Positions 50,143 through 50,431 of a DNA stretch of 64,000 bases are shown one piece after another (position 1 is the first letter of the stretch; every line of letters starts with the position of its first letter). The notes below the pieces were generated by a model. The model did no database searches. It saw only the letters and a program-made list of their open reading frames with translations, and was not told the origin of the DNA. The translations under genes and the position numbers were made by a program. This DNA is from Deinococcota bacterium (GTDB taxonomy: Bacteria; Deinococcota; Deinococci; Deinococcales; Trueperaceae): the NCBI GenBank assembly GCA_963170125.1, contig CAUJFI010000025.1, positions 1 to 64,000 on the forward strand. The letters are read 5' to 3'.

Positions 50143-50238
50143 TCTCGCCTCGAAGGTCTCAGATGCTCGATCTGGTGAGGGTCTGTCGTTCCGTTAGCGC
50201 GGTTCTTGCTTCTTGCGATCGACCCACACGACGAGAAA

Positions 50239-50277
50239 GCGACCGTGGGGCCTCGTTCGGGGGCTGCCCACGGTCGC
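50239..50277 (-). terminator. Terminator-like attenuator hairpin before the ABC exporter
   Basis: On the minus strand, GCGACCGTGGG and CCCACGGTCGC form a perfect 11-bp stem with a 17-base loop, followed by TTTCTC. It lies 19 bases after the leader ORF and about 96 bases before the exporter ATG. As an intrinsic terminator inside the leader it would reduce exporter transcription unless it is prevented from forming. Confidence 0.6.
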
Positions 50278-50296
50278 GTCGGTTACTAAACTCTGT

Positions 50297-50392
50297 TCAG
50301 CGAGCGACGAGCAGGCAGTCCTCTCCCGTAAGCGGCTTGCCGGCACCCAGGTGCCGACGCACGCGTACGTTGAGGAAGAAGACGCCTGCCAT
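50297..50392 (-). CDS. 31-residue leader peptide ORF of the ABC exporter
   Basis: ATG at 50392 begins about three bases after the predicted transcription start. The frame encodes 31 residues starting MAGVFFLNVRVRR and ending LLVAR before TGA. A hairpin (CGGCAC/GTGCCG) lies inside the frame and the terminator-like hairpin follows. Placement is that of a regulatory leader peptide, as in bmrB upstream of bmrCD in Bacillus subtilis. The GTCGC of the last codons could pair with the GCGAC of the terminator's left arm, offering an alternative fold. Confidence 0.6.
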   Translation of the reverse strand: MAGVFFLNVRVRRHLGAGKPLTGEDCLLVAR

Positions 50393-50401
50393 GACGCTGG
50401 A

Positions 50402-50431
50402 ACTTTAGCGGCAAGGCCCAGGGGTTGTCAA
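50402..50431 (-). promoter_or_regulatory. Promoter of the exporter leader
   Basis: Minus-strand TTGACA (50431-50426), an 18-base spacer and TAAAGT (50407-50402). The perfect -35 is one of only two in the window. The start is predicted near 50395. Confidence 0.75.

Follow-up and report, generated by a model that had tools for sequence, protein, structure and literature searches.

The heterodimeric ABC exporter encoded in the window (the whole 64,000-nt stretch analyzed, contig 25 of a 3.08-Mb assembly) is preceded by a leader whose arrangement recurs in 13 genera, which makes it more than a chance constellation, and the locus is probably a ribosome-mediated transcription attenuator specific to Trueperaceae. 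This reading had been put forward for the window in a first-pass annotation and is now supported by the presence across the family of ORF, antiterminator and terminator, and by computed folds in which the latter two are mutually exclusive. On the minus strand the locus comprises a promoter, a leaderless or nearly leaderless ORF, a GC hairpin and the two exporter genes (Table 1).

Table 1. Features of the exporter locus in the window
Feature	Position	Strand	Remarks
-35 box TTGACA	50431-50426	-	sequence read
-10 box TAAAGT	50407-50402	-	18 nt spacer to TTGACA
Promoter TTGACA-N18-TAAAGT	50402..50431	-	most relatives with sufficient sequence have a TTGACA or similar box at the corresponding position
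Leader ORF, 31 codons, MAGVFFLNVRVRRHLGAGKPLTGEDCLLVAR	50297..50392	-	leaderless or near-leaderless start
Hairpin inside the ORF, CGGCAC-CTGG-GTGCCG	50356-50341	-	
Conserved RNA motif GGGAGAGGACUGCCUGC	50311..50327	-	antiterminator 5' strand and best internal anti-Shine-Dalgarno site of the leader
Motif partner GUGGGCAG (3' part of terminator left arm plus loop)	50264..50271	-	pairs with CUGCCUGC, 50318-50311
Inner antiterminator stem, 5' strand GUCGC	50304..50308	-	in the last ORF codons
Inner antiterminator stem, 3' strand GCGAC	50273..50277	-	shared with terminator left arm
Intrinsic-terminator hairpin GCGACCGTGGG/CCCACGGTCGC with tail TTTCTC	50233..50277	-	11 bp stem; left arm 50277-50267, right arm 50249-50239, TTTCTC 50238-50233
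Second copy of terminator left arm, UCGUGUGGGUC	50221..50231	-	can pair with the right arm
ABC exporter subunit 1, 634 aa	48238..50142	-	canonical NBD
ABC exporter subunit 2, 605 aa	46424..48241	-	degenerate catalytic site (FDD replaces LDE)

The promoter of the window matched 10 of the 12 consensus letters, with one such site in 1.5 kb vs. 0.1 expected from shuffles. The leader ATG lies nine bases past the -10 hexamer, so that the transcript would be leaderless or nearly so and start within about three bases of the ATG. Leaderless starts are common in Deinococcus-Thermus, being attributed to about 40% of genes in one computational survey (PMC3160421). Both promoter boxes, a transcription start close to the ATG (borne out by the nine-base gap), the 31-codon ORF, the 11-bp GC stem followed by TTTCTC and the two exporter genes had been read from this DNA by the first-pass annotation, and each of them was found in its place. 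The hairpin that it had noted inside the ORF is also present in the window and in the nearest relative, L081, but absent in L082, and was thus rejected as a conserved part of the system.

Among solved structures, subunit 1 matched P-glycoprotein-type exporters, TM_0288 and a 611-623 aa multidrug exporter chain (5mkk, 6raf). In subunit 2 an Asp replaces the catalytic Glu after Walker B (LLVFDDISSALD vs. LIVLDEPSSRLD), and one degenerate site of this kind fits what is expected of a heterodimer. The closest matches of the window exporter among named genomes belonged to Trueperaceae (class Deinococci).

The exporter was present in 28 of the 39 Trueperaceae genomes. A covariance model detected the leader element in 27 of these 28 and in none of the 11 genomes lacking the exporter; in the lone exporter genome without the element (G006) the contig begins just before the gene. 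Since the model was built from 25 loci that include most of the positives, the independent evidence consists of the absences and of G018, which was found afterwards. Each locus with enough sequence showed the same order: the end of a short ORF, the motif described below, a spacer, the hairpin GACCGUGGGC...GCCCACGGUC with U in its tail, and finally the exporter. On contigs that extend far enough upstream, these are preceded by a start codon and in most cases by a TTGACA-type promoter. Lack of the ORF and hairpin in relatives had been named in advance as a result that would speak against attenuation, and ORF, antiterminator and terminator proved to be present wherever Trueperaceae have the exporter. 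More distant exporter paralogs in the same genomes (46% identity; L154 in G024:C292 and L153 in G025:C476) had no such leader.

With the same model, no convincing copy of the element appeared elsewhere in 111 genomes of class Deinococci, and the near-exact motif (0-1 mismatch) was essentially confined to the exporter locus. A wider regulon was rejected, as motif and covariance model gave essentially one site per genome, the exceptions being duplicate exporter contigs and weak hits. Spread outside the family was rejected as well: of the weak model hits in G052, G066 and G090, two resemble terminators after unrelated genes and one lies in a coding-like stretch. The leader was absent from the exporter orthologs outside the family (G039, G044, G045, G046, G063, and G072). 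Two of these orthologs, L185 (G072:C138) and L186 (G063:C7), had about 17 nt upstream in common (TTTAGGCGACCGGAAGC), a leader stretch unlike that of Trueperaceae and with no Rfam match.

The terminator hairpin of the window was not flagged by a simple terminator scan, owing to a long loop and a poor U tract. The same hairpin occurs in relatives, several of which carry runs of 5-7 U; the poor U tract belongs to the window's own genus. A weak U tract in the window would suit the view that the ORF is just a small gene ended by a terminator of its own, the exporter being transcribed from another promoter, and the search for other promoters consisted of a consensus scan only. This explanation is nevertheless highly improbable because the leader strictly accompanies the exporter, the competing stem covaries and a conserved peptide is lacking. 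A second copy of the terminator left arm follows within about 60 nt past the terminator (Fisher P = 3.6e-7 family-wide; P = 0.10 for the window locus alone). Lying so far downstream, it cannot influence termination, and a function like that proposed for vmlR, freeing the ribosome-binding site of the exporter, was rejected because folding gave a small loss of access and no gain.

The nucleotide-level core of the leader, missed by the first-pass annotation, is the motif GGGAGwGGwCUGCC, close variants included, located where the leader ORF ends. All 24 leaders read contained an ORF, of 19-77 codons, and in every one the stop lay 17-31 nt past the start of the motif (joint null product of 2.5e-7 across 13 genera) and was separated from the terminator by 20-30 nt. 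In several genera (the window, L083, L087, L089, and L095 among others) the start codon comes shortly after the -10 box, and other leaders (L092, L096, L097, and L102) start with a Shine-Dalgarno sequence (SD) such as GGAGCAGG. Within genera, leader indels in pairwise protein alignments were multiples of three and pN was about equal to pS upstream of the motif, which indicates conservation of the frame but not of the peptide. Most genera read the motif as RE(R/W)SA(C/G/D), whereas the window's lineage (GEDCLLVAR) and L083 (GVVCPETGH) read it one base out of that frame. G018 (L152), from the window's genus, has the majority frame (GERSAV), whereas the window, L081 and L082 have the other one, with the stop re-placed.

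An unconserved peptide together with a motif in two frames argues for selection on RNA plus translation, not on the peptide, and the ORF would accordingly serve as a translation gauge. Codon conservation, one of the checks suggested at the outset, was not borne out: neither codons nor peptide were conserved among the 24 leaders, which shared no run of repeated codons for one amino acid. A specific arrest peptide or amino-acid leader, in which particular residues stall the ribosome, would agree with the similar [RG]E[RW]SA[CGD] tail at the leader end in most genera; the window's lineage and L083, however, use another frame for these bases, the remaining leader residues show no relation from genus to genus, and single-amino-acid runs are lacking, all of which leaves this explanation very little probability. 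Conserved arrest peptides and regulatory codons were thus rejected on the frame differences and on pN being about equal to pS.

When RNAs ending before the right arm were folded, the left arm was captured by upstream RNA in 25 of 25 loci; the antiterminator stem is thus already complete by the time the right arm is transcribed, which makes the two folds mutually exclusive. The GTCGC:GCGAC antiterminator of the first-pass annotation held as a pairing, but it turned out to be no more than the inner section of a long, imperfect stem starting with the motif. In group A (genera g1, g2, g5, g6, g7, g9, g10, g12, g13, and g16) GGUC(U)GCCUGC pairs with GUGGGCGACC, and the stop region and the left arm are joined by an inner stem whose sequence varies; the corresponding stems of the window are CUGCCUGC:GUGGGCAG (outer) and GUCGC:GCGAC (inner). 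In group B (g4, g8, and g14) GCCCA.GG.GAGGU pairs with ACCUC..CC.UGGGC.

Compared with shuffled 5' segments, the native RNAs of 13 genera folded more stably (Fisher P = 2.8e-4), and the same comparison for left-arm capture gave P = 1.7e-3; single-locus shuffle tests were often not significant, because GC-rich left arms find partners by chance. Some values of the shuffle, chimera and covariation tests are inflated by the relatedness of the sequences. Own halves paired better than species chimeras (P = 0.0018 for outer and 0.0008 for inner stems in group A; 0.014 and 0.011 in group B). When one locus per genus was taken, the whole group A stem gave a median P of 0.0024 against chimeras (range 0.00005-0.032) and the outer stem alone a median P of about 0.05. 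The covariation that had been proposed as a check in relatives was obtained in group B, where none of 500 shuffles reached the observed score and AU, UA, GC, and UG occurred at one position, but not in the fixed columns of group A, with 80.7% paired vs. 79.8% in shuffles and hence no excess, the columns there being nearly invariant or changing register. Pairing in group A dropped to 39-45% when the partner was slid along. A 30-nt ribosome block placed at the leader stop lowered the mean left-arm capture in folding from 0.76 to 0.57 (P = 4e-6); with the ribosome at the stop, part of the left arm was still captured through other pairings, and more of it in L091, L095, and L103.

A protein- or ligand-binding RNA element, similar to a riboswitch, would have the motif as its binding site and the ORF as incidental or secondary; the motif nucleotides are indeed conserved whatever the frame, and their GGGAG part is unpaired in many group A antiterminators. 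We regard such an element as unlikely, since the start signals are kept in two forms (leaderless or with an SD of the GGAGCAGG type), the stop keeps its place at the motif, the sequences of the flanking stems are free to vary, and the leader had no Rfam family match at gathering score, corresponding to no known riboswitch. Attenuation by a ribosome agrees with the anatomy found by computation: a promoter and a short, presumably translated ORF stand ahead of an intrinsic terminator and the gene, an antiterminator that forms earlier excludes the terminator (in group A without extra column covariation), and the antiterminator strand overlaps the leader ORF, where a ribosome could mask it.

Translation of the leader is suggested by the start signals and the conserved frame. 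From the anatomy, its conservation and the exclusive folds, we infer the course of termination and read-through and the nature of the signal as follows. In a healthy cell the ribosome would reach the end of the leader and cover the motif, where the SD-like GGGAG/GAGG may keep it through pairing with the 16S tail; with the motif covered, the left arm would be free, the terminator would form and the exporter would stay off. If ribosome-targeting drugs or some other failure of translation blocked the ribosome near the beginning of the leader, the motif would be left bare, the antiterminator would form and the polymerase would continue into the exporter. Given that the peptide is unconserved, the switch should answer to blocked translation generally and not to one drug or amino acid; the natural inducers would be drugs, as we infer. 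The same attenuator might instead sense general translation capacity (initiation rate, charged tRNA, growth phase), in agreement with the lack of conserved regulatory codons and with a fold that responds to the presence or absence of a ribosome only; this version seems rather less probable to us, the controlled gene being a multidrug-type exporter, as in the antibiotic-induced bmrCD (PMC4191407).

The motif was the strongest anti-Shine-Dalgarno (anti-SD) site of the whole leader in 22 of 24 cases, and this strength was also found in drifted motifs (GAGGAGGU, GGGAGGAG, GGGAAGGAG, GGGGGGU, and CGGAGG). The distance from motif end to stop was 8-12 nt in most genera, a spacing that would let anti-SD pairing hold the ribosome with the stop codon in the A site, and 17-22 nt in the window's lineage and L083, where the hold would fall a few codons earlier. 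This regularity of the sequences suggests a parked ribosome in the off state; in group B the G-rich sequence needed for pairing explains part of the anti-SD signal. As a tentative extension, the motif might play a double role in any frame, acting when bare as the antiterminator 5' strand and, as an SD-like site paired with 16S, parking the terminating ribosome on the stop codon and so enforcing the off state. If true, the leader would be a peptide-independent gauge of translation, often starting on leaderless mRNA, and the SD-like site by the stop codon allows a direct test of anti-SD ribosome parking in attenuation.

Among the closest known systems is bmrBCD of Bacillus subtilis, in which the leader bmrB precedes the antibiotic-induced heterodimeric exporter BmrC/BmrD and, according to the published model, termination is favored by efficient leader translation (PMC4191407). 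In bmrBCD (PMC4191407) as in Trueperaceae, a heterodimeric multidrug-type ABC exporter is preceded by a short leader (translated in bmrB and presumably also in Trueperaceae), an antiterminator and an intrinsic terminator, and the window exporter shares with bmrCD the single degenerate catalytic site (FDD vs. LDE after Walker B). The bmrB terminator lies inside the leader coding region (PMC4191407), whereas that of Trueperaceae lies 20-30 nt past the stop; furthermore, many Trueperaceae leaders have a leaderless start, and their stop region overlaps with an RNA motif found across the family. Because the terminator is outside the ORF and the resemblance to bmrB is one of layout, we have not filed this leader under the bmrB system, and the evidence points to a bmrB-like sensor of blocked translation with a separate design.

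The vmlR leader of B. subtilis likewise has a uORF and a terminator that competes with an antiterminator, attenuation there depending on antibiotics, but its mechanism also involves an anti-antiterminator, pausing of RNAP and a hairpin that covers the vmlR SD (PMC9226507), whereas in Trueperaceae a stalled ribosome would affect the antiterminator strand itself and folding found no unmasking of the exporter SD. In attenuators of the trp/his/ilv type, such as the ilvB uORF of Corynebacterium (PMC10272879, as described in PMC11109978), the position of the ribosome also chooses between antiterminator and terminator; the Trueperaceae leaders differ in having neither runs of regulatory codons nor a biosynthetic gene downstream. 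Arrest-peptide leaders of the ermC type have a conserved nascent peptide, unlike those of Trueperaceae with their differing frames and similar pN and pS. The topAI/toiL uORF of Escherichia coli senses several classes of ribosome-targeting drugs, as the present one would, but toiL acts on topAI translation and thereby on Rho (PMC12121999), in contrast with the intrinsic terminator before the exporter in Trueperaceae. No description of such a leader for Truepera or Deinococcus was found in the literature, of which subscription papers were covered to a small extent.

The leader would thus achieve a bmrCD-type logic with different parts in at least 13 genera of a lineage of the Deinococcus-Thermus group and, if confirmed, would allow a role in tolerance to translation inhibitors to be assigned to the exporter. 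The occurrence of one RNA motif in two frames makes available a natural set of leaders for separating effects of the peptide from those of ribosome position, and the comparison of G018 with the window, L081 and L082 constitutes a natural experiment on whether RNA or peptide matters.

Among the individual leaders, L090 (G030:C135) has its first part tandemly duplicated, as ATGATAGA(C/G)CGGGCCCCCCTCCACCTCACCA, the first duplicate running into a stop that overlaps the second ATG.
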